From Sesamum alatum (taxonomy: Eukaryota > Streptophyta > Magnoliopsida > Lamiales > Pedaliaceae), in contig JACGWO010000003.1 of assembly GCA_034509735.1 (NCBI GenBank), positions 8,556,001 through 8,620,000 of the forward strand: DNA of 64,000 nt, in the 5' to 3' direction. This document shows positions 40,938 through 61,301 of the stretch, in pieces (the stretch's first letter is position 1; each line of letters opens with the position of its first letter). The notes under the pieces are model-generated. The model saw only the letters and a program-made list of their open reading frames with translations, was not told where the DNA came from and made no database searches. Position numbers and translations under genes: made by a program.

Positions 40938-42704
40938 CTTTTTGCCACCGCCTCCCTCACATGTAATATAAATTTTACCAAATTAAGTTATGACTAAGTT
41001 TTTATGCATTCCTTTCTTTCCTCCTGAGACCTTGCGCGGAAACAGGTTATTAATATTAATTCTTTTCATTAATTGATTTATATAATTATTTTATTTGATT
41101 AGTGCAATTATTAAATAAAATTTATACTATTCGATTTATGTTTTATCATGAAATTTTATGAATTTGACTATTTATAAGTTAGTGCTTGGTTAAATATTTC
41201 ATTTGAATTAGGGATGCTATAGTTAATGAATTAAATTAATTAATTTATTAGATTTAATCATTTTTTCTAATTGATTTATTCAATTTAATTGGATTGATAA
41301 ACCATATGTTTAATTACATGATTGTGTATTTAATTAGTTGTTACAATAATGAGGAACTGCTAAAAAGGAATAGAGACATTGAAAAAAAAAACTATATTTG
41401 AGAAACTTAGAAAGTTATATGTGAGACTATTATATTTATTCAAAAGGAATATAAAATATTTGAGATAATCCCATTTAGGGATGTTAACAAGAAAAAATAT
41501 AATAATATGAGGGTTTAATAAAATGAATCCTTATGAGTTAATTAATAAATTAGATGTATATTTGAAAAGCCTAGAATGTTTAGTTACTTAAAAAAAACAG
41601 ATAAAAGATTTGAATTTTGATATAAATGAAATATTAAAAGAGTGTGGAAAATATACGAATATTATTTAATATTTTATTCATAATTTACAATATTATCAAT
41701 ATATTGATTATACATATTATAAGCTATTATAGGACACGAGGATAAAGTAAAGGGTTGACCAACTCCTTTTACTAATGTAATCGTTTTATGATTTAAAGTA
41801 AGTATGGTTAATTGAATTTATATATGTATATATGAATTTATATGTATTCTTGTGTTCTATACTTGATCGTGTATTGTTAGTTATTTGTTTGGATTACATT
41901 GTTTTTCTGTGAAGTTGCCGTTTTGTCTTTATTTGCGATTATGTGTGTATAACAAAGATTAATGGATTATCGTGTTATGTTATATTTTGTTATTGAATGA
42001 TGAGCTTACTGGTGGGTAATCAATTGTCGAATGAAATTGAAAGATGAAGTTAATGATGTTGTTGCTGTAGATTGAAATATAGAGATGACTAACCTAACTA
42101 GGGGACATACTGCAATGACTTGTGATGATAGGATTAATAACGAGTTGTGTGCTATCGTTGGTTAATGGAGATGACGTGATATCATACAAGCTATGTGCTG
42201 TGTGATATTATTGGTGATGTAACATATTATACGAGTTGTGTGCTGTGTGATATGATTGATTATTGGGTATCATACGAGTTGTGTGCTTTGTGATACTGTG
42301 GAAAAAAATGAGGTGATATTGCGATGGAGATGATGATAGCCAGTGAATACCATTGAGTGATGCACTCCAACTTGGGTAAGCAGGGCCCTAAAAAAATAAA
42401 TAATAACATTGTTTTATGTTGTGTATGCATATGTGTGTGTGTATATATATATATATATGCTGACAGCTCATTCATTGTCACATATTTTTCAGGATATAAG
42501 CCGATCATCAGTATTAATAGGTAGGTCAACAGTATCATCTTGAGCTGGTAGTTCTAGCTACATAACTACAGAGATAATTGATTTTGATTGAATATGTATT
42601 TCATGATTTATTGAGTTTAATATAAATTTCTTATAAAACAGGTTAAATTAAGGAAGGTGTATATAATTAGTGGTATTAAAGCTTTGTGCTGTAGGGGCTG
42701 CTAC
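40938..42704 (+). repeat. Element E 5' LTR, lacking its 5' end
   Basis: Matches 52560-54486 from CACCGCC.CCCTCACATG to GGGCTGCTACG. It contains the CATACGAGTTGTGTGCTGTGTGATA sub-repeats (three copies, about 42140-42295), ATGCACTCCAACTTGG-TAAGCAGGGCCCTAA and the AATAGGTAGGTCAACAGTATC block. Confidence 0.75.
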
Positions 42705-42710
42705 GTTGGG

Positions 42711-42723
42711 TGGTATTAGAGCA
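42711..42723 (+). promoter_or_regulatory. Element E primer-binding site (tRNA-Met-like)
   Basis: TGGTATTAGAGCA, one mismatch from the standard TGGTATCAGAGCA, six nucleotides after the LTR end. Confidence 0.75.
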
Positions 42724-42839
42724 GGGATTAGATTCTCTGAGATACTTAATGAGAGTAGTACTATTGAATCTACAAAACCTATATTATGAATCTAAGTGCA
42801 CATGCTGGTTTCATATTAAACAAAAAATCAGGTGAACAT

Positions 42840-43602
42840 GTTGCTGACCTACAAGAGTGATTAAAATCTGTATAGTAGTATAGAACCATCAAGGTATGAT
42901 ATAAATGTAATTATGTTTGTTGGTGGGGTTATGCTAGTAAATATAGTAGTAAGATCTTGTCTAGTGATAGTGGTGGTAATATACAATATGTGAATTTGGT
43001 TGTGATAAATCTTAGAGAGTTTGACATTATTCTATGAACAAATTGGTTATCTCGTAATCACATTATAATTTACTGTAAAAAAAAAAAAAGGAACGATAGA
43101 AGTTATTAGGCAAATGAAGCTGGTAATTGTGGGAGAAAGGAACGTCATATCCAATTATTTAATTTCTCTTGTGATTGCCTTTAATTTAATTAAAGAAGGG
43201 TGACATGCATGATACCACAATGGTTAGTTTTGGTATATTAAATGTTCCGATAGTTAAGAGAATTCTCTAATGCTATCTTGAAGACTTATCTAGGTCACAA
43301 ACTCATTAGGATGTAGATTTTGAAAGAGAAATTATTCCTAGGACATAACCTATTTTGATTGTGCAATATAGGATAGCTCCAATAGGAACTATTAGAGAAC
43401 TAATTCATTAGATTGAGTACTTCCTTGTGGGGATCACTAGTATTGTTTGTGAAAAATAAATGGCAGTATGAGATAGTGTACTGATTATAGCCAATTGAAT
43501 TAGGTGACAATGAAAAATAAATATCCATTACTAAGAATCGATGGTTTATTAAACCAGTTGAAGGGAACTATAATCTTTTCAAAGATCGATTTGAGGTCTA
43601 GT
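42840..43602 (+). pseudogene. Element E protease and RT N-terminal remnants
   Basis: Around 42990-43130 the plus strand reads LVVINLREFDIIL, NWLSRNHIIIYCKKK and then VGERN, the chromoviral aspartic protease C-terminal pattern (FDVILGMDWL...). Around 43470-43600 it reads [22 protein letters not shown] and [12 protein letters not shown], the start of the RT palm (catalytic Asp in KID). Many stops. The frame is cut at 43602 by the inverted-repeat element's TSD CTAGT. Confidence 0.75.
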
Positions 43603-43922
43603 TGTAACACCCCCTACTGTACTACACCTCGTTCCCACTAATTAATATTCCTTTTTTCTAATTCCAACTCATTCCATAACGTAATATAGATTATGTTTTA
43701 CCAAATAACAAATATATATATATATATACAACATTAAATCATAAACATAGCCAAAAACCTTATATTTACTTCCCACCACTTTACATAACTTAAGAAAAAG
43801 ATAACCAACATCCAACTGTCCAAAATTTTAAAACCAACTCTACAACACTAGGATGTTTAAGTTACATAGCCCAAAACTTCCAACCTCCGATATCACGGCT
43901 GACCCACCTATTCAGTGTCACG
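43603..43922 (-). repeat. Left terminal inverted repeat
   Basis: Reverse complement of 47750-48078, ending at CTATTCAGTGTCACGGC, where it is fused directly to the start of tandem unit 1. Confidence 0.9.
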
Positions 43923-46900
43923 GCTTACCTAACTAGGGAGCATACTCAATGGCTTAGAATGATACGATCAATGACGAGCTGTGTGCTGTTATTGATCAAT
44001 GAAGATGATGGAATACACACGAGCTGTGTGCTGTGTGATAACAGTGAGGATGGGATACACACGAGCTATGTGTTGTGTAATATTAGTGAGGATGAGATAC
44101 ACACGAGGTGTGTGCTATGTAATATCCGAAAAGAAAAGCGAGTGGAGGAAGGAGTATTGTGATTGAGATGAGGATGATGGTGATAGCCGGCTAAGCTAAT
44201 TGAGTGATGCACTCCATGTTGGATAAGCAGGGCCATAAGAAAATAACTACAATGCCTCTATTATGTCTTGAGTTAATATCTTATTGCAGCTATGTGATTT
44301 CTTATCTGCTGTAATGTATGTCACATGTTGGATTGTGTCGGTATACTTGCTTTATACTTGATTTGTTGCTCGTATACTTATATATAAACCGAAAGACTAT
44401 ACTTATTAAGTAAGCAGCTCATTCCTTGCCACACACGTTTCAGGAGATAGGTCGCACGGATTAATACCATTAGATCTTGAGCCGTGCCGTGACACTGAAT
44501 AGGTGGGTCAGCCGTGACATCGGAGGTTGGAAGTTTTGGGCTATGTAACTTAAACATCCTAGTGTTGTAGAGTTGGTTTTAAAATTTTGGACAGTTGGAC
44601 GTTAGTTATCTTTTTCTTAAGTTATGTACAGTGGTGGGAAGTAAATATAAGGTGTTTGCCTATGTTTAAGATCTAAGTATTTATATATATATATATATAT
44701 ATTTATTTTATTATAAATATTATTTCTTGCATTTAATAAATACTTATATGCTTATGTGAGTATTTATATTGAATGTTGGATGTATATAGATATATTTATA
44801 TGGATATAAATATGGATTGTTTATATACTCGATCATGGATGTCGATTGTGATTAAGATTATCTTTATATCTGTGGAATTGCTATAATGTGCTAAAGTGTG
44901 ATTGTGCTGCACGGATGTTGGCTGAATGATTGCAGGTTTTATAATTGATTGTGATATGAAATCAAATAGGAATGGTATTGACGAGTGAATGATTATTAAA
45001 TGAAACGATGGCTTACCTAACTAGGGAGCATACTCAATGGCTTAGAATGATACGATGAATGACGAACTGTGTGCTATCATTGATCAATGAAGATGATGGG
45101 ATACCCACGAGCTGTGTGCTGTGTGATATAAGTAAGGATGCGATACACACGAAGTGTCTACTGTGTGGTATCAGTGAGGATGAGATACACACAATGTGTG
45201 TGCTGTGTGATATCCGAAAAGAAAAGAGAGTGGAAGAAGGAGTATTGTGGTTGAGATGATGATGATGATGATGGTGATCGCCGGCCAAGCTCATTAAGTG
45301 ATGCACTCCATGTTAGATAAGCAGGGCCCTAAGGAAATAACTACAAGGCCTCTATTATATCTTTAGTTAATATCTTATTGTAGCTATGTGATTTCTTATC
45401 TGTTGTAATGTATGTAGCATGTTGGATTGTGTCGGTATACTTGCTTTATACTTGATTTGTTGCTCGTATACTTATATATAAACGAAAGGCTATACTTATT
45501 GAGTAGGCAGCTCATTCCTTGCCACACACGTTTCAGGAGATAGGTCGCACGAATTAATACCATTAGATCTTGAGCCGTGCCGTGACACTGAATAGGTGGA
45601 TCAGCCGTGATATCGGAGATTGGAAGTTTTGGGCTATGTAAATTAAACATCCTATTGTTGTAGAGTTAGTTTTAAAATTTTGGACAGTTGGACGTTAGTT
45701 ATCGTTTTCTTAAGTTATGTACAGTATTGGGAAGTAAATATAAGATTTTTGGCTATGTTTAAGATCTAAGTATTTATATATATATTTATATGAATATAAA
45801 TATTATTTGTTGGATTTATATATATAAATAGTTATATGCTTATGTGAGTATTTATGTTGAATGTTAGATGTATATAGATATATTTATATGGATATAAATA
45901 TGGATTGTTTATATACTCGATCATGGATGTCAATTGTGATTAAGATTATCTTTATATCTGTGGAATTGCTATAATGTGCTAAAGTGTGATTGTGCTGCAT
46001 GGATGTTGGCTGAATGATTGCGGGGTTTGATAATTGATTGTGATATGAAATCAAATAGGAATGGTATTGACGAGTGAATGATTATTAAATGAAATGATGG
46101 CTTACCTAACTAGGGAACATACTCAATAGCTTAGAATGATACGATCAATGACGAGCTGTGTGTTGTCATTGATCAATGAAGATGATGGGATACCCACGAG
46201 TTGTGTGTTGTGTGATATCAGTAAGGTTGGGATACGCACAAGGTGTGTGCTGTGTGGTATCAATGAGGTTGAGATACACACACTGTGTTTGCTGTGTGAT
46301 ATCCGAGAAGAAAAGAGAGTGGAAGAAGGAGTATTCTAATTGAGATGATGATGATGGTGATAGCCGGCTAAGCTCATTGAGTGATGCACTCCATGTTGCA
46401 TAAGCAGGGCCCTAAGGAAATAACTATAATACCTCTATTATGTTTTGAGTTAATATCTTATTGCAGCTATGTGATTTCTTATCTGCTGTAATGTATGTCG
46501 CATGTTGGATTGTGTCAGTATACTAGTTTATACTTGATTGGTTGCTCGTATACTTATATATAGACAGAAAGGCTATACATATTTAGTAGGCAGCCATTCC
46601 TTGCCACACACATTTTAGGAGATAGGTCACACGGATTAATACCATTGGATCTTGAGCCGTGCCGTGACACTGAATAGGTGGGTCAGCCGTGACATCAGAG
46701 GTTGGAAGTTTTAGGCTATGTAACTTAAACATCCTAGTGTTGTAGAGTTGGTTTTATAATTTTTGACAGTTGGACGTTGGTTATCTTTTTCTTAAGTTAT
46801 GTACAGGGGGGAAGTAAATATAAGGTTTTTGGCTATGTTTAAGATCTAAGTATTTATATATATATATATATATTTTATATGATTATAATATTATTTGTTG

Positions 46901-47749
46901 GATTTATATATATAAATACTTATATGCTTATGTGAGTATTTATGTTGAATGTTGGATCTATATAGATATATTTATGTGGATATAAATATGGATTATTTAT
47001 ATACTCGATCATGGATGTCGATTGTGATTAAGATTATCTTTATAAATGTGGAATTGCTATAATGTGCTAAAGTGTGATTGTACTGCATGGATGTTGGCTA
47101 AATGATTGCGGCGTTTTATAATTAACTGTGATATGAAATCAAATAGGAAAGGTATTGACGAGTGAATGATTATTAAATGAAACGATGGCTTACCTAACTA
47201 GGGAGCATACTCAATGGCTTAGAATGATACGTTCAATGACGAGCTGTGTGTTGTCATTGATCAATGGAGATGATGGGATACACACGAGCTGTGTGCTGTG
47301 TGATATCAGTGAGGATGGGATACACACGAGTTGTGTGCTGTGTGGTATCAGTGAGGATGAGATACACACGAGGTGTGTGCTGTGTGATATCCGAAAATAA
47401 AAGAGATTGGAAGAAGGAGTAATGTGATTGAGATGATGATGACAGTGATAGCCGGCTAAGCGCATTGAGTGATGCACTCCATATTGGATAAGCAGGGTCC
47501 TAAGGAAATAACTACAATGCCTCTATTATGTATTAAGTTAATATCTTATTGTAGCTATGTGATTTCTTATATGTTGAAATGTATGTCGCATGTTGGATTG
47601 TGTCGGTATACTTGCTTTATACTTGATTGGTTGCTCGTATACTTATATATAGATCGAAAGGCTATATTTATTGAGTAGGCAGCCCATTCCTTACCACACA
47701 CGTTTCAGGAGATAGGTCGCACGGATTAATACCATTTGATCTTGAGTCG
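43923..47749 (+). repeat. Tandem array, unit about 1088 bp
   Basis: Unit starts at 43923, 45011, 46100 and 47188. Each unit carries three tandem copies of a ~42-bp sub-repeat (ATACACACGAGCTGTGTGCTGTG.TATCAGTGAGGATG, quoted in part), an AT-rich interior and the ATGATTATTAAATGAAA..GATG end. Confidence 0.92.
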
Positions 47750-48078
47750 TGCCGTGACACTAAATAGGTGGGTCAGCCGTGACATCGGAGGTTGGAAGTT
47801 TTGGGCTATGTAACTTAAACATCCTAGTGTTGTAGAGTTGGTTTAAAATTTTTGATAGTTGGACGTTGGTTATCTTTTTCTTAAGTTATGTACAGTGGTG
47901 GGAAGTAAATATAAGGTTTTTGGCTATGTTTATGATCTAATGTCGTATATATATATATACATATATATTTGTTATATTTGTAAAACATAATCTATATTAC
48001 GTTATGGAATGAGTTGGAATCAGGAAAAATGAATATTAATTAGTGGTAACGAGGTGTAGTACAGTAGCGGGTGTTACA
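47750..48078 (+). repeat. Right terminal inverted repeat
   Basis: Runs GCCGTGACACTAAATAGGTG to AGCGGGTGTTACA. Inner ~180 bp is also present inside tandem units 1-3; the last ~150 bp occurs only at the two ends of the element. Confidence 0.9.
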
Positions 48079-48083
48079 CTAGT

Positions 48084-49040
48084 TATGGCAATTGAGGATA
48101 ACAAATAAGGATATACCTAAAAGAACTTTTCGCACTCATTATGGTCATAGCGTATTTTTAGTAATATCATCGGGGTTAAAAGATGCACAAGAAACATTTA
48201 TGAAAACATTTCAAGAGTACTTGGATCAATTTGTGATAGTTTTTATAGTAGCATTTTTTAGGGATAGAAATGAGCATGACAACATTCAAAAAAATAATAT
48301 TGCAGATCTTGAAAGAGAAAGATTGTACACTAAGTTATAGCAAGTGTGAGTTTTGGGTGAATGGGGTAGTTTTTCTAGTACATGTGATATCTGAAGATGA
48401 GGTCAAATCTGACCCAACAAAGGTGACAACTATTACGTAATGGAGAATACAGAAATATGAAACTCAAGTATGATGTTTCTTAGGACTAGTTGGGTATTAT
48501 AGGCGATATATTGAAGGTTTCTCCATGATTGTTGGTCCTTTGAAGAAGGTATTAAGGAAAAGGGGCGCCTTTTCACTAGATTGAGTAGTATCAACTAAGT
48601 TCTATGAGTTAAAGAAAATATTAATATTAACGCCGATTTTAGTTCTACTGTTCAGTAGTGGTGGATACATGATGTATATAGATACTTTGAAACAAAGTTT
48701 AGGATATGAACTAATTCAAAATAAGAAGATGATTTCGTATGCATCTCGTCAACTAAGAAACCACTAGTTATATTACCAACGCATGTTTGGAGCTAGCAAC
48801 AAATATACATTCATTGAAGATTCAGAGACACTTTTTTTTTGCAAAAAGATTTTATATTTCCAATAATCATAAGAGTTTGAAATATGTTTTGACGCATTAA
48901 GGAGGAATTTAAGATAAAGGAGATGGATAGGATTGTTAAAGAATTATGATTGTACTACCACTTATCATCTTTGCAAGCTGAATGTAGTAGTGGATGCCTT
49001 GAGTAGGAAAGTTCAATTGCTTTGTAGCTGATTTGGTAAG
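48084..49040 (+). pseudogene. Element E RT and RNase H remnant, after the inverted-repeat insertion
   Basis: The RT resumes in 48092-48340: MRITNKDIPKRTFRTHYGHS, TFMKTFQEYLDQFVIVFIV (the YxDD motif has become FIVAFF, so catalytic Asp residues are lost). It continues LVGYYRRYIEGFSMIVGPLK (about 48490-48545), YELKKILILTPILVL (48608-48650), then RNase H traces ISYASRQL near 48740, and NVVVDALSRK at 48985-49015. Stops are frequent. After 49040 the integrase is not recognisable. Confidence 0.8.
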
Positions 49041-49699
49041 TCTCAATGTGATATTATTATTAGAAATAATGCCAATGAATGTAAAGTTAGAGGTTGATCA
49101 TATGGCGAATTTGTTAGCAACTTTGCAATTTCAGCCAACTACCATCTTAGCGGTATTAGGGTAAGATATTTGCACCTAATGTGTAAGTTAACAACTGAAT
49201 CAGAGTAGAGGTTTAAAAAACTTCAGTTATTTTAGGATTTTTGGATATGTTCTATGCTAAAATGTGATGAACCATTATTGGGTGATCGATCAATATATGA
49301 TTTATTATAATTGGAGTGCTAATCCAAGAAATTATGTCACTGATCTTGTTGTGGCAGTTTTTTTTAGGTTGCGATAGTATTAAAAGTCTGGTTCACAATT
49401 TGATAAGAAATGTTGGAGACATACGATATTTGATATTTGGAAAGGAACTTATGTAACAAGCGTGGTATTTGGAAAATACAAGTTCGAGCACATCCCAAAG
49501 CCCAGAAATGAAAAAAGAGGTTGAATCAAATGTAAGAGGACTATAAGAAAGGTTTATCGATCTACTATCTATATGCAAAGAAATGACTGCTAAATGAAGC
49601 ATTTGGAGGCAAATCAAGGAATGTTAAAGGCATTAATTGTGGCTATTTTTTATTTTAATTTTTGTTGTAATTCTGAAGTGAATTTGAATGTTTGTGTAT
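49041..49699. other. Decayed post-RNase H sequence of element E, no clear domain
   Basis: The plus strand shows traces such as MANLLATLQFQPT, the linker region that normally follows RNase H, then nothing assignable. Small minus-strand frames look fortuitous. Confidence 0.4.
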
Positions 49700-50199
49700 G
49701 TGTTCCTCATATGAAATAAATGTTGAAATAATAGAAGATTAACATGTTTGACAAAAGCAAAAAACTTTGGTTAAACCTTGACCAAGTGAAGTATTATCCA
49801 ATCCAACATCCAAAATGAGTTAAACCATGACAAAAGGCAACACATATCCAACAATCAGACCACCAATTCTGTTAGTTCATGTACATTGCAGCCAACAAAA
49901 CAAAAAAAGTAAAGTCTCAACACTAGCCATTACTTGCACCCCCCATTTCTATTTGCTGAAGACCCTTACTTGGCTAGTTTTGGCTTATATGAGTTGAAGA
50001 GATTTTTCATATTTAAAGATACGCTAATTTTGCGAACAACATTTTCTCTTAAACCCCTCTGCTGCTAGTTTTGATGGCATCTGTTGTTTTCTCTTATCTA
50101 GTTTACTGTATAAAGAGGTTGGATTCATTCACTTCCTTTGAGCCTTAGGTAGCTACAAGTTTACAAAATATGGTAAATCCATGAATGCATGTATATGTT

Positions 50200-51870
50200 T
50201 TAGGAAAGTTTAGAGAAAATATAAAAGTACATTAAGAAAATTACTTGAACTGGAGGAACTAGAACTATTGGAGCTGGGACTGGAACTGTTGGAACTGGAA
50301 CTCTTGGAGCTAGGGCTGGAAATGTTGGAACTGGAACTTTTGGAGCTGGAGTTGGTTTCTTGAAGGGTCTTCTCTGTGAAGGCTGTTGAGAAGGCTGGGG
50401 CTGTGAAGGTTGTGGTGACACCTATCCAATAGTACATAAGAAAATTATCTAATGCATCAAAAGAAACATAACAAAAACTAAAATAACTCAATAAATATTA
50501 CTGTTACAGTCACAAAAGCAGTGGAATCTTCATGCATTGTCTTTGTTGTATTCCCCTTCTTGGTCCATGTGCATTCCTAACATTGTGTCTTCTATGTTGG
50601 GATTCTCCAAATATTACAAGTATACATAAGTACAATAATATAATATATTATAAACAGTTTCAAAGTAGTCAATGAAAGTAGCAATACCTCTGTGAACTTG
50701 GAATTGGGATGAGGTGGTTCCTTACAACTCCTTTTGTTATGTCCTTGGCCAAAGCAGATAGCACATGGATTCTTACACTAGGAGGATCCACGTTTCCCAT
50801 ATTTGAATCCTCAAAATCATGCATCCAGTAACAAATGGTTGTACACTTCTAAATAGACATCTTTTCTCAGACTATCATCTACATTCCTTCTATGGTAGTC
50901 AATTGCTGCAACTGCATGGCAGTAGGGATAGCCTCCAAGCTGAAACATTCCACAACTGGAGTGTTTGTTCTTCAAGTACACAATATGGTTTTGCATAAAA
51001 TGCATAACCTTAAACTTGTCCTCACTAGCCCAAGATGGAAAGCAATTTCTACGTTCATGTCTTTGTACATCAATATTTTTAGTTATATTAGGATAAACAA
51101 CTGCTTCAAATTTCTCCATTCATTCTCTTTTTAGTTGAATTCTTGTCATGAACTTTCTACTTATCCAATCAAACATGTCTATAATAGGCATCAGTCCCCT
51201 CAACCCCTGCATCATCCCCCTCATCTTCACCCTCACCCTCAACCCCCTGTGCTCCGGCAGCAACCCATGAATCCCCCAAAAACTCAAAATCAGCACCCTC
51301 AAATGTAATTTGAGGGAACATTTTCGTAAGTTTCTATCACATTACCATGTAGGTCAAGTGTTAAAATGGGCCATGAAAGCTCTTGAATGTATATGGAAAT
51401 TACATTCAAGCCCTTGTACTCCCTCAACGACTCCCTAATGCCACTATTCCCATCTAATACCTTCAGTCCTTCATCTAATGTTTAACCAGGTAATGTATAG
51501 TATATTATTAAATTGCTACCCTTAACCCCAACTTTTGTGTACATGTCTATAAGATTATCATAAAAAACCTGTCCTTATCTATTGTAGGGAACCACAATTT
51601 GGAACCCCCAACATACCTAATAGTGGGGACCCATTCAATAACCCCCCTAACCACACATAAAAGTCTGCATACTCCCCCATAGCCATTATCTGCACATTTA
51701 AAAATAAAAAACTTACTTATAACATAGAAATGAACATAAAATAATGAAGGGTGGGACCATTTATCAATGCATAAAATACTATGCTTTAAAGCAGTGGGGA
51801 ACACATTTAGGGCATGGGACCAAGCCATGTTGTTTTTGTCCACAAATGCATAAATCATCATCATAATACT
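50200..51870 (-). pseudogene. MULE transposase with internal deletion (N-terminal, SWIM and CCHC parts)
   Basis: From about 51864 the minus strand reads an N-terminal module (HPSLFYVHFY, YVGGSKLWFPTIDKDRF) typical of plant MULE proteins, then VKGSNLIIYYTLPG, YKGLNVISIYIQELSWP and an acidic linker (GEGEDEGDDAGVEGTDAYY). It then jumps to the C-terminal part (51200-50817): FDWISRKFMTRIQLKRE, FEAVVYPNITKNID, and a SWIM-like zinc finger SSCGMFQLGGYPYCHAVAAI in which Cys positions are partly changed (Ser/Tyr). A knuckle CAICFGQGHNKRSC follows at about 50735-50780, then a Pro-rich tail with VPVPT repeats (50421-50200). The DDE catalytic domain expected between linker and SWIM is absent, and there are stops near 51120, 50810 and 51480. 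Non-autonomous. Confidence 0.78.
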
Positions 51871-52460
51871 ATAAAAATCTAATCCCTAACAAGAAGCAGT
51901 ATAAATCCACCAAAAAATCCATTTCTACACAAAACCCTATATTCATCATTCAACATCACAACCCAACAAACGAAACAAAATTTACAGTCAAAAACATATA
52001 AAACAAAACCATTTGCAGAAATAGAAGCACACAATTTATTTGAGAAAAATTTTCATTAGGGATAACTTACCCGTCCTTTGTATGCCCTTGTCTTTCCCGA
52101 AATCGCGCAATGTCGTCCTCCAAATCACAAAAAGCTGTTTTGCTTACCTCCTAAATGCCTATAATCTATAATTTTCCTATCAATTCCTGCCCTAAATCGA
52201 ATTCAAGCTAACCCTAATCGCTTTCCCCTCCCCCCTTTTCTCTCATTAGGTTTATTTTTTCTCTCTCTTTGATTGAGAGATAGTGAGTGAACAGAGTGTT
52301 AAAGGTTAGAGGGGCAAAACGGGTATTTCAGTTTATTTTTTGATGCCGTTAGTCTCTCTTAACAGAAAGGGCAAGTGAGCTTGATTTATTAAAACACGGT
52401 GTTTCTTTTACATATTTTTAAAACACGAGGGGATTTTACGCTGAATTTCGAAAACAAAGA
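51871..52460 (-). other. MULE 5' flank and sub-terminal region
   Basis: Between the transposase start and the terminal repeat. Contains short A/C-rich leader-like sequence (51890-52000) and T-rich stretches. No gene seen. Confidence 0.45.
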
Positions 52461-52559
52461 TGGGTTTTATGCAATTTATACAAAATAATATAATAACATA
52501 AATTAAAATGGGGATGACTTAGTGGTAGGGCAAGTGTGCCACCAGCAATTGCAAAGTGT

Positions 52560-54486
52560 GAAAATTCTTTTTACCACCGCCTTCCTCACATGTAATATAA
52601 ATTTTACCAAATTAAGTTACGGCTAAGTTTTTAGGCATCTCTTTCTTTCCTCCTGAGACCTTGCACGGAAATAGGTACCTAATGTTTCATTCTTTTAATT
52701 AATTGATTTATATAATTATATTATTCGATTAATGCATTTATTAAATGTAATTTATACTATTTGATTTAGTATTTAATCAGAAAATTTTATGAATATGACT
52801 ATTTATAAATTAGTGCTTGGATATTTCATTTTAATTAGGGATGCTATAGTAGTTAATGAATTAAATTACTTTATTTATTAGATTTAATTATTTTTTATAA
52901 TTGATTGCTCAATTTAATCGAATTGATAAACAAGATATTTAATTATATGGGTGTGTATTTAATTAGTTGTTATAATAGTTAGAGATACTAAACAAAAATT
53001 ATATTTGAGAAATTTAGAAAGTTATATTTGAGAATATTATATGTATTCAAAAGGAATATAAAATATTTGAGATAATTCAATTCAGGTATATTATCAAGAA
53101 GGATAGTATAGTAATATATATATATATATATATGGAAAGCCTAGAATGTTTAGTTATTTAAAAAAAAAAACTGACAAAGAGTGATGAAAAATGTATGAAT
53201 ATTATTTAATATAAATATAGTATTCTTAAATATAAACGAACTATTAAAAGAGTGATGAAAAATGTACGAATATTATTTAAGATTTTATTCATAAGTTACG
53301 ATATTCTCAATATATTGATTATACATATTATAACCTATTATAGACATGAGGATAAAGGCAAGGGTTGACCAGCTCCTTTTACTAATGTAATCGTTTTAAG
53401 ATATGAGGTAAGTAAAGTTAATTGGATTTATATATGTAAATATAGATATATATATATATATGTTCTTGTGTTGTATACTTGATCGTGGATTGTGGTTATT
53501 TATTTGGACTACATTGTTCTTCTATGAAGTTATTGTTATGTGTTTATTTTTGATTATAATAAAGATTAATGGATTATTGTGTTATGTTATATTTGATTAT
53601 TGAATGAAATTGAATGATGAGCTTAGTGGTGGGGAATCGATTATCGAGTGAAATTGAACGATGAAGTTAATGATATTGACGCTTTAAATTGAAATATAGA
53701 GATGGCTTACACAATTGGGGGGATATATACTGCAATGGCTTGTGATGATAGGATTAATGACGAGTTGTGTGTTGTTATTGATCAATGGAGATGATGTGAT
53801 ATCATACGAGCTGTGTGTTGTGTGATATTATTGATGATGTGACATATCATACGAGCTGTGTGCTGTGTGATATGATTGATTATGGGATATCATACGAGTT
53901 GCGTGTTGTGGTACCCGGGAAAAAAAGATGAGGAGATATTGCGATTGAGATGATGATAGCCGGAAAAGACCATTGGTTGATGCACTCCAACTTGGTTAAG
54001 CAGGGCCCTAAAAGAATTAAATAATAACCTTGTATTATGTTGTGGATTGATATCATGATTGTTGGCTTTCGTTATTGCATGATTATGGGGTGATTGCGTG
54101 ATGAAGAATTATTAGCTGGTGCCATTGCTTGAAACGGGTCATACTGTGTATGCGTATGTGCGTGTATATATATATTATATATATATGATAAATAACTATA
54201 CTTATTGAGTTGAGAACTCATTCCTTCCCACATATTTTTGAGGATATAAGTCGTAGTGACTAGTTGAATATGATCATAAGCCGATCATCAGTATTAATAG
54301 GTGGGTCAACAGTATCATTTTGAGCCGGGAGTTCTGGCTACATAACTACGGATATAATTATTTTGATTAAATTTGTATTTCACGATTTATTAGTTTTAAT
54401 ATAAATTTCTTATAAAATAGGTTGTAATTAAGGAAGGAGTATATAACTAGTGGTATTAAAGGGTTGTGTCATAGTGGGTGCTATAG
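52560..54486 (+). repeat. Element E 3' LTR, lacking its 5' end
   Basis: Homologous to 40938-42704 throughout (ATGTAATATAAATTTTACCAAATTAAG, GACCTTGCACGGAAATAGGT, CATACGAGCTGTGTG sub-repeats near 53800-53900, TTGGTTAAGCAGGGCCCTAA, AATAGGTGGGTCAACAGTATC) and ends near GTGGGTGCTATA. Confidence 0.75.
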
Positions 54487-59048: not shown

Positions 59049-61301
59049 TGTAACACCCATAGATTTTTATACATAATTGACAGACTAATTAGTAATTATT
59101 AAAAAAAATTAAATTTATTAGTAAATAAATTATAGGTCAAAATTTGAATATATTAAAATTTTAAAGGAGTAAATTGAATCCGTATAAATTATTTGGGAGC
59201 AAATTATATAAATTAAGAAAATTAGAGGGCGTAATTAGAATTTAAAAAAATTAAAAAAATTAAAAAATATTAAATTAAGTTGAATTAGGGTGGAGCAGCA
59301 GCACGTACTGCCACCCCTCAAGCCACTAGATTTTTACCCTCCACCACCCTCAATCCTACAAATATATATTATGCCTTAACTAATTAAAGTAATTATCACA
59401 CACACATACACACACAAACCGTTCGCAAATTCTCCTTTGTTTCAAATAGGTAAGAAAATAATGTCTAAAAATTATAATTAATTAATTTATATAATTTTAT
59501 TATGTGGTTAGTAAATTTATTAGATGTAATTTTTATTATCCGATTTAATATTTAATCGAGAAATTTTATTGGTTTAATTATTTATAAGTTAGTTTGTTAA
59601 ATATTCAATTTGTCTCGAAGGTTTTGTAGCCAAGTGATTAAATTACTTAATTTATTAGATTTAATCATTGCTATAATTAATATATTCCATTTAACTAAAT
59701 TTTTTGATCAAATTATATGTGCAGGTATTGAATTAATTTTTATAGTAGTGAAAATTTGTTAGAAATATTAAAAAATATATTTAAGAATTATTAAAAGATT
59801 ATATTGGAGAAATATTATGTTTATTAGGAAGGATATGAGAACTTTGTAATAATTTAATTCAGGGATGTTATTTAAGAACAACAACTATAAAAATAGGAAG
59901 GGGTTGATAAAATAAATTCTTTTAAATTAGTGGGTAAATTAGATGTATATCTGTTAGCTCAGAGTATTTAGTTATTTAGAGGAAAACAGAATGGAGATTT
60001 GAATTTTGATATAAAGAAGATATTAAAAGATTGATGGAAAATGTATGAACATTATTTAATATTTTATTCAGAATTTACGATATTCTTTATATATTGATTA
60101 TACATATTATAACATATTATATGACATGAGGATAAAGTATAGGGTTGAGCAGCTCCTTCTACTAACGTAATCTGTTGAAATTGAGGTAAGTATAGTTAAC
60201 TGGATTATATATATATAGATAGATAGATAGATATATATACTTGTTGTTGGAATTGTTGATTGTTAATTATTGGTTATTTATCTGGATTACGTTATTGATA
60301 TGTGAATTTGTTACTGTGTTCTTATCTCTGGTTCTGAGTACAGAAGTCAGATGAATGATTGTGTGATACTATATTTGATTGTTGAATGAAATTGAATGAT
60401 AAACTTATTGATGGGGAATCGATTGTCGAATGAAATTGAATGATGAAGTTATTGATGGAAATATTGTGAATTGAGATAAAGATATGACTTAACTAACTTG
60501 AGCACATTACAATGGCTTATGATGATATGATTAATGACGAACCGTGTGTTGTCATTGATCAACAAAAATGGCGTGATATCATACGAGTTGTGTGTTGTAT
60601 GATATTATTAATGATGTGACATACCATATGAGTTGTGTGTTGTGTGGTATGATTGATGGTGGAATATCATACTAGTTGTGTGTTGTATGATATTGAAAAA
60701 ATGAAGAAGATGAGATATTACGATTGAGATGATGATAGCTGACAAAGACCATTGAATGATGCACTCCACCTTGGGTAAGCAGTCCTCAGAAAATAAACGA
60801 TAACATCGGGCATTATGCTATTGATTGATAAATGATTGTTGGTATATGTTACTTCTTGAATTTGTTGTGATTGCATGGCGAGTATTAGTTGGTTATACAT
60901 AAGCTAATTGGGTATATTTATTGAGAGGCAACTCATTCCTTGCCACATATTTTTCTTTCAAGAGATAGACCGCAACGACTTGCCTAAATAGATCATAAAC
61001 CCGATCATCAGTCTTATCAGGCGGGTCAACAATGATATCTTGAGTTGGGAGCTCTAACTACATAATTACATAGATATTAGACTTTTAGTGAGTTTGTATT
61101 TTAAGTTTCGTATATCTAAAACTACATTTTTCTCCTTTTCATTGTTCATAAATGCTACACTGGAATATTATATACCAAATTTTAATAAAGCATTTAAATT
61201 CATAATGTTTATGTAATATATTGATGAAAATAAAAATTATCTTATTGGGCTTAAATGTGAGTTTTTTATGAGATGGAATGTATTTATGGAGGGGTGCTAC
61301 A
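59049..61301 (+). mobile_element. Solo LTR of a Tekay-like chromovirus (2253 bp)
   Basis: TGTAACACCC start and GGGGTGCTACA end. Flanks GCTCA (59044-59048) and ACTCA (61302-61306) form a 4-of-5 TSD. The interior has the family's sub-repeats (CATACGAGTTGTGTGTTGTATGATATT, about 60570-60700), CACTCCACCTTGGGTAAGCAG and the CAGGCGGGTCAACAATGATATC block, so it is the most complete copy of the LTR in E. Orientation plus is set by these blocks. No coding region. Confidence 0.82.

Follow-up and report, generated by a model that had tools for sequence, protein, structure and literature searches.

The window, the whole stretch of 64,000 nucleotides of Sesamum alatum DNA that was analysed, contains a 4.5-kb object (43603–48078) that combines inverted arms, four direct units of ~1.09 kb and a perfect CTAGT duplication directly outside both tips (Table 1). 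All three features had been described in the initial annotation and were recovered here, with the unit starts one base off the numbers given there. The two arms, 320–326 bp long, are reverse complements at 93% with gaps. They differ by 14 substitutions over 321 aligned bases (a plainer alignment gives 14/221 in the inner part and 6/102 in the outer part), and 9 of the 14 differences are private to one arm. Differences so few, and mostly private, are expected if the arms began nearly identical. The direct units are spaced at 1088, 1089 and 1088 bp and differ pairwise by 6.7–8.9%.

The object is composed of LTR pieces (T, A and END), with no direct LTRs, primer site or internal region. A primer site follows neither tip, and the U3 signature is absent from the object on both strands. 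Compared with four of five complete LTRs, the first ~1.1 kb is missing (~1.5 kb against the LTR of L011), and the inverted U5 end stands in that place. A solo LTR, that is, one complete LTR between duplications, is ruled out by this replacement of the 5′ part. The longest stop-to-stop frame is 122 aa, and frames of at least 80 aa fall in repeat sequence, as judged by eye. The left tip motif TGTAACACCC is uninformative by itself, since the window holds 4 matches with one mismatch against 3.5 expected. A TATA-like motif occurs at the same place of the LTR in 16 of 20 relative loci, and we take the box in unit 1 to be a putative LTR promoter element.

Table 1. Features of the object and of the element that hosts it (window coordinates).
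Feature	Position	Strand	Remark
Target-site duplication, left copy CTAGT	43598..43602		Exact; matches of the object's own flanks overlap at query 89–94, the duplication and one chance T
Left arm, inverted U5-side end of the family LTR, tip TGTAACACCC	43603..43922	-	From alignment to the right arm
Inversion joint, 3-bp microhomology GGC	43922..43924		Spanned only here among the best 40 of 952 candidates
Unit 1 (LTR pieces A + END-inner + T)	43922..45009	+	
TATA-like box of the LTR in unit 1	44377..44389	+	~97 nt upstream of the start of the left arm's copy
Unit 2	45010..46098	+	
Unit 3	46099..47186	+	
Unit 4, running into the normal LTR end	47187..47976	+	
Right arm, U5-side LTR end in normal order, tip GGGTGTTACA	47753..48078	+	
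Target-site duplication, right copy CTAGT	48079..48083		
Older decayed retrotransposon hosting the object	40938..54483	+	LTR homology ~40938–42703 and 52567–54483; outer limits inexact

Tips of the object and its source family

Twenty genome stretches holding close relatives of the arm were taken for comparison. LTRs of this family have TGTGACGTTCGTAG at their start and, ahead of the primer site, GGGGGTGTTACA at their end. The start or a close variant of it occurs in 15 of the 20 stretches, and in 5′ LTRs the primer site, reading TTAGGTGGTATCAGAGC or TTGAGTGGTATCAGAGC with minor variation, comes after END. END is the LTR 3′ end in the relatives, and the order T–A–END is found in 17/20 (a T match is missing in L014, L022 and L023). 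Opposite-strand END pieces and arrays of the object's type are absent from all 20. L017 carries one extra 28-base END match, and in L021 whole LTR ends lie head to tail.

Seven of the 20 fetched stretches hold ordinary copies readable at both ends (L013, L018, L019, L020, L022, L024 and L025), and all seven have a U3-type tip on the left, a U5 tip on the right and a 5-bp duplication outside them; the first bases of the left tip are mutated in L013 and L025. L016 was left out of this count because its left and right flanks disagree and the latter resembles the primer site at its start.

Given these starts and ends of the family LTRs, the left TGTAACACCC of the object is an inverted U5 tip. The earlier reading of the left arm as the family's LTR end turned around therefore stands, and the tips of the relatives identify that end as the 3′ (U5) one. 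Judged by its tips, the window object is a U5/U5 insertion in which the U3 tip is lacking. Ordinary chromovirus copies have the U5 tip, the order of LTR pieces and the 5-bp duplication in common with it, but they carry one U3 (TGTGACG) and one U5 (TGTTACA) tip, whereas the object has two U5 tips. A normal U3 tip was rejected as an identity for TGTAACACCC here, the U3 tip of the family being TGTGACG; among Del elements of sorghum and maize, TGTAACACCC is the commonest U3 tip (PMC4029996). The first three bases, TGT, are common to U3 and inverted U5 tips.

Units of the object had been assigned to the surrounding LTR family. Their LTR homology is clear, but neighbouring LTRs in the window are only ~68–75% like the units over stretches of at least 300 bases, and other parts of the genome hold much closer LTRs (mostly 82–95% in pieces A and END). 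By these similarities, the nearest parent of the object is a closer subfamily elsewhere and not one of the neighbouring LTRs. The relative L024 has gag, reverse transcriptase, integrase and chromodomain matches (Pfam H2C2 and Chromo; rve below its cut-off). Going by such relatives, the object derives from the LTR of a chromovirus family with integrase and chromodomain, presumably of the Del/Tekay type in view of its end motif.

Empty sites and further U5/U5 pairs

The element that hosts the object is older and decayed, and the main stretch of its two LTRs shows 81% similarity. The reverse transcriptase of this element reads across the joined flanks, as KIDLRSSYG.. and then, just rightward and in another frame, as QLRITNKDIPKRTFRTHYGH. 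In L024, the stretch matching the host flanks (SKIDLRSGYWKLRIAENDIPKTAFRTRYGHY) falls in a reading frame that has an RVT_1 match; the window's own short right-hand frame has no Pfam match. An empty-site query, made of both flanks of the object and one CTAGT copy, was compared with the genome. The joined flanks run uninterrupted in 38 of 40 scored places (best 40 of 318 candidates), and the remaining two are the object's own flanks in the window, whose overlap consists of the five duplicated bases and one chance base. The window object is, on the evidence of these empty sites, a clean single insertion that arrived as one unit, in agreement with the initial annotation, which had proposed insertion as a unit with a 5-bp duplication.

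Recurrence of such tip pairs was surveyed across the genome with 160 U5 tips, of which 150 came from two zero-mismatch patterns (64 + 86) and 10 were picked by eye, the window's own right tip among these 10. Within 30 kb, they form 26 same-strand neighbours, 4 opposite outward-facing pairs and 0 inward-facing pairs. Spacing is 4.8–7.7 kb in 17 of the 26 same-strand neighbours, as in ordinary LTR pairs. Three outward pairs lie within 5 kb, against 0.12 expected under random placement with nesting ignored, and these three include the window object, which prompted the survey. For U3 starts, 100 of 273 formed 21 same-strand neighbours and no opposite pair within 30 kb, a sample too small to establish an asymmetry. 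A looser U5 pattern gives 216 tips, 100 of them listed, and more U5/U5 cases may exist. The four outward pairs are the window object, L029 (on C84), L030 (on C86) and L031/L032 (on C83). The last was rejected as a U5/U5 case; these two are ordinary neighbours, since a primer-site complement directly adjoins the left tip and the flanks show no match to each other.

L029 (401–2310 of its stretch) is 1910 bp long, with two U5 tips and TTAAA on both sides. Its arms are 444 bp, have 10 differences and are sisters in the tree (92/83). The inverted arm joins the LTR at ~853 of L020's LTR, a breakpoint that differs from that of the window object; it extends past the TATA-like box. There is no array, and the subfamily differs from that of the window object. 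No second copy of the joint was found among the best 40 of 323 candidates. The joined flanks are uninterrupted in 39 of 40 scored places (best 40 of 2976), the remaining one being L029's own left side, and the fetched empty sites read straight through in 5/5. By tips, duplication and empty sites, L029 is an independent U5/U5 insertion of the same kind as the window object. L029 also lacks 13 bases ~35 bp to the right of the insertion site, away from the joint.

In L030 (301–2322 of its stretch), an inverted U5 arm of 133 bp is attached to the LTR of a different subfamily, the two differing at 23/125 bases. The flanks of L030, AATGA and AATGT, match at four of five positions, which has a chance probability of ~2%. 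L030 may represent a U5/U5 insertion of chimeric make-up, or else two insertions that have fused.

A mobile non-autonomous family had been proposed for the object, and this claim is not supported. The inverted joint is spanned nowhere but in the window (200-base query, best 40 of 952 candidates), and for the array joint the only spanning matches are the three joints within the object itself (301-base query, best 40 of 392 candidates). A mobile array family was rejected on these two results, and the term foldback element accordingly remains apt for the shape but not as the name of a family. An inverted U5 end recurs in L029, with a different breakpoint and no array; the array is therefore incidental, and the recurring thing is the pair of U5 tips.

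The four units group together in one clade (98/89), and L011 is their sister (95/97). Two trees of the arm region do not place the left arm clearly as sister to unit 4, and support is weak for the clade that unites the arms of the window object with L011 (87/76). Since the units differ more (6.7–8.9%) than the arms do (14/321), the array may have arisen before the inverted tip. No donor of the array was found among the best 40 of 392 candidates for its joint. The joint lies in TA runs, and the array is most likely a separate one-off duplication at such runs.

Origin of the second U5 tip

The object is very probably a single insertion with a 5-bp duplication and two chromovirus U5 tips in opposite orientation, and the family's integrase is likely to have inserted it whole from an aberrant reverse transcript. 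Use of two inverted copies of the LTR 3′ end by the integrase had already been suggested, and it appears to be the best reading of the relatives' tips and of the insertion as a unit.

Template switching is the route that we infer to such U5/U5 DNA. Minus-strand DNA would start at the tRNA primer and so carry the U5 end at its 5′ tip. During synthesis across the LTR, the nascent strand may switch at 2–3 bp of microhomology onto minus-strand DNA, the template being either its own folded-back strand or a sister strand. Copying back out to the primer end would then create a second U5 tip in the opposite orientation. Once this strand had been made double, the integrase could pair the two U5 tips as it does U3 and U5, and staggered joining would leave the 5-bp duplication. 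In the window copy only, TA runs would have been the site at which a 1088-bp LTR segment was repeated 3–4 times, either earlier or in the course of this event. Joint microhomology amounts to three bases, GGC, in the window object, and also to two bases, TA. For L029, the template was not just strong-stop DNA, because its arm passes the TATA-like box; the arm as a simple copy of strong-stop DNA was rejected for this reason.

The second tip might instead come from two truncated cDNAs, each with one intact U5 tip, that were end-joined head to head by the host and then integrated. Joints with 2–3 bp of microhomology or in TA runs suit such joining, and L030, if real, unites arms of two subfamilies (23/125), as two molecules would allow. 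However, the arms of L029 are sisters (92/83), those of the window object fall in one small, weak clade with L011 (87/76), and an origin from a single template requires no second molecule. This route is possible but rather unlikely. Its probability is counted within that of the preferred reading, whose main claim head-to-head joining would satisfy too.

Rearrangement of an ordinary LTR in place, its left part being swapped for an inverted copy of the right end, draws on the finding of each joint only once among the best 40 candidates (window object and L029) and on the shared TGT with which U3 and inverted U5 tips begin. The swap would nevertheless have to end ~3 bases from the outer tip with the duplication left intact, and to do so again independently in L029, which makes this explanation improbable. 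Fusion by deletion of two insertions in opposite orientation is still less probable. An ordinary pair of outward-facing neighbours does occur (L031/L032), and L030 could be a fusion, but with this base composition a perfect 5-bp match has a probability of ~0.0013 per locus, and the flanks form an uninterrupted site in 38/40 places for the window object and in 39/40 for L029, where the other places are the loci themselves. Acceptance of the empty sites means that fusion is refuted for both. A mobile foldback or TIR transposon family with internal repeats, moving as a unit, would account for the shape (inverted tips, internal repeats and target duplication); the joints of the window object and that of L029 are nevertheless single among the best 40 candidates for each, and such a family is very unlikely. 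An assembly artefact is equally hard to credit: the structure is known from the assembly alone and its repeats are ~91% alike, but the contigs listed are 22–53 Mb long, the duplication is exact, and the same design recurs with other sequence at a second locus, L029.

Relation to known elements

What is new, as far as tips and flanks can tell, is the insertion of an LTR retrotransposon with the wrong pair of tips, in two independent cases with empty sites. No precedent for inherited U5/U5 insertions was found among open-licence papers. Retroviral integrases can integrate two U5 ends in vitro, whereas the present cases are two natural insertions inherited in a genome. The U5/U5 geometry would resemble an early step from retrotransposon to DNA transposon. 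Two questions can now be put to the test. One is the frequency with which reverse transcription produces DNA bearing two U5 tips; the other is whether errors of this type could be the starting point of integrase-bounded inverted-repeat transposons such as Ginger. This U5/U5 class is likely missed by LTR finders, which seek direct repeats, and would be useful to genome annotators.

Ginger transposons and TDD-4/TDD-5 offer a close comparison. These elements have TIRs with TGTNR tips and a Gypsy-like integrase as transposase; TDD-4/5 make 5-bp duplications, and Ginger otherwise makes 4-bp ones (PMC2836005). The same account suggests that the TIRs may stem from two LTRs in opposite orientation, by a route of two insertions, and terms the chain of events unclear (PMC2836005). 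Against the elements so described, the object's 5-bp duplication fits TDD-4/5 only. Ginger encodes a transposase and forms families, while the object has no recognised coding sequence and no sister copy among the best 40 candidates. The route proposed by the Ginger authors takes two insertions, and that proposed here one cDNA. We tentatively suggest that U5/U5 integration may be a recurrent natural by-product of chromovirus replication, in which the integrase inserts a miscopied cDNA with two inverted U5 tips whole and the insertion is inherited. Each such event would convert an LTR retrotransposon in a single step into a TIR element with both ends recognisable to an integrase, and it could be the missing step towards integrase-driven DNA transposons such as Ginger.

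Plant foldbacks have long inverted arms and internal tandem repeats. The foldback element Tetris of Drosophila (PMC4079207) likewise has long inverted arms and internal tandem repeats, as the object does. Relative to foldback elements so characterised, the object differs in its tips and duplication, which are of the LTR integrase type, and in having no family of copies. TRIM and LARD elements are non-coding and LTR-derived, with two direct LTRs, a primer site and a polypurine tract. The object resembles them in its derivation from an LTR and in its want of coding capacity, but its tips are inverted, and it has neither primer site nor polypurine tract.

Relatives in the same genome and their LTRs

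In the tree, the closest relative of the four array units is L011, a stretch of the same genome (C89:8439000-8448900) whose LTR has lost its end to a small deletion that also took the beginning of the primer site. L021 (C80:29908415-29918300) carries three LTR copies, all pointing the same way; two of these follow each other head to tail at a spacing of ~1.27 kb. The copy in L022 (C81:11670100-11680002) looks full-length; its LTRs measure only ~710 bp, whereas those of solo relatives reach ~2.3-2.4 kb.

Repeated tips and nearly emptied LTRs

U5-like tips recur closely spaced on one strand at several places. At three places on C79, the contig that also holds the window, 79 bp or less contains both the U3 start and the U5 tip; these stretches are LTRs almost emptied, perhaps copied to the three places by segmental duplication.

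Positions of repeated U5-like tips and nearly emptied LTRs (C77-C80, contigs of the same genome)
Feature	Position	Distance
U5-like tip repeated, same strand	C79:29595845/29595894	49 bp apart
U5-like tip repeated, same strand	C80:3174530/3174579	49 bp apart
U5-like tip repeated, same strand	C78:36148020/36148111	91 bp apart
U5-like tip repeated, same strand	C77:58260659/58260760	101 bp apart
U3 start and U5 tip	C79:51563059-51563137	within 79 bp
U3 start and U5 tip	C79:51632314-51632392	within 79 bp
U3 start and U5 tip	C79:51705490-51705568	within 79 bp

Other elements in the window

A second element may be nested in the host retrotransposon at 50210-51885, because the frames there do not look chromoviral and one resembles the SWIM-type zinc finger of Mutator-like transposases; a Pfam search with this frame gave no match. 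A related family is represented by a solo LTR at 59049-61301, with ends TGTAACACCC...GGGTGCTACA and flanks GCTCA/ACTCA, which agree at 4/5 bases.
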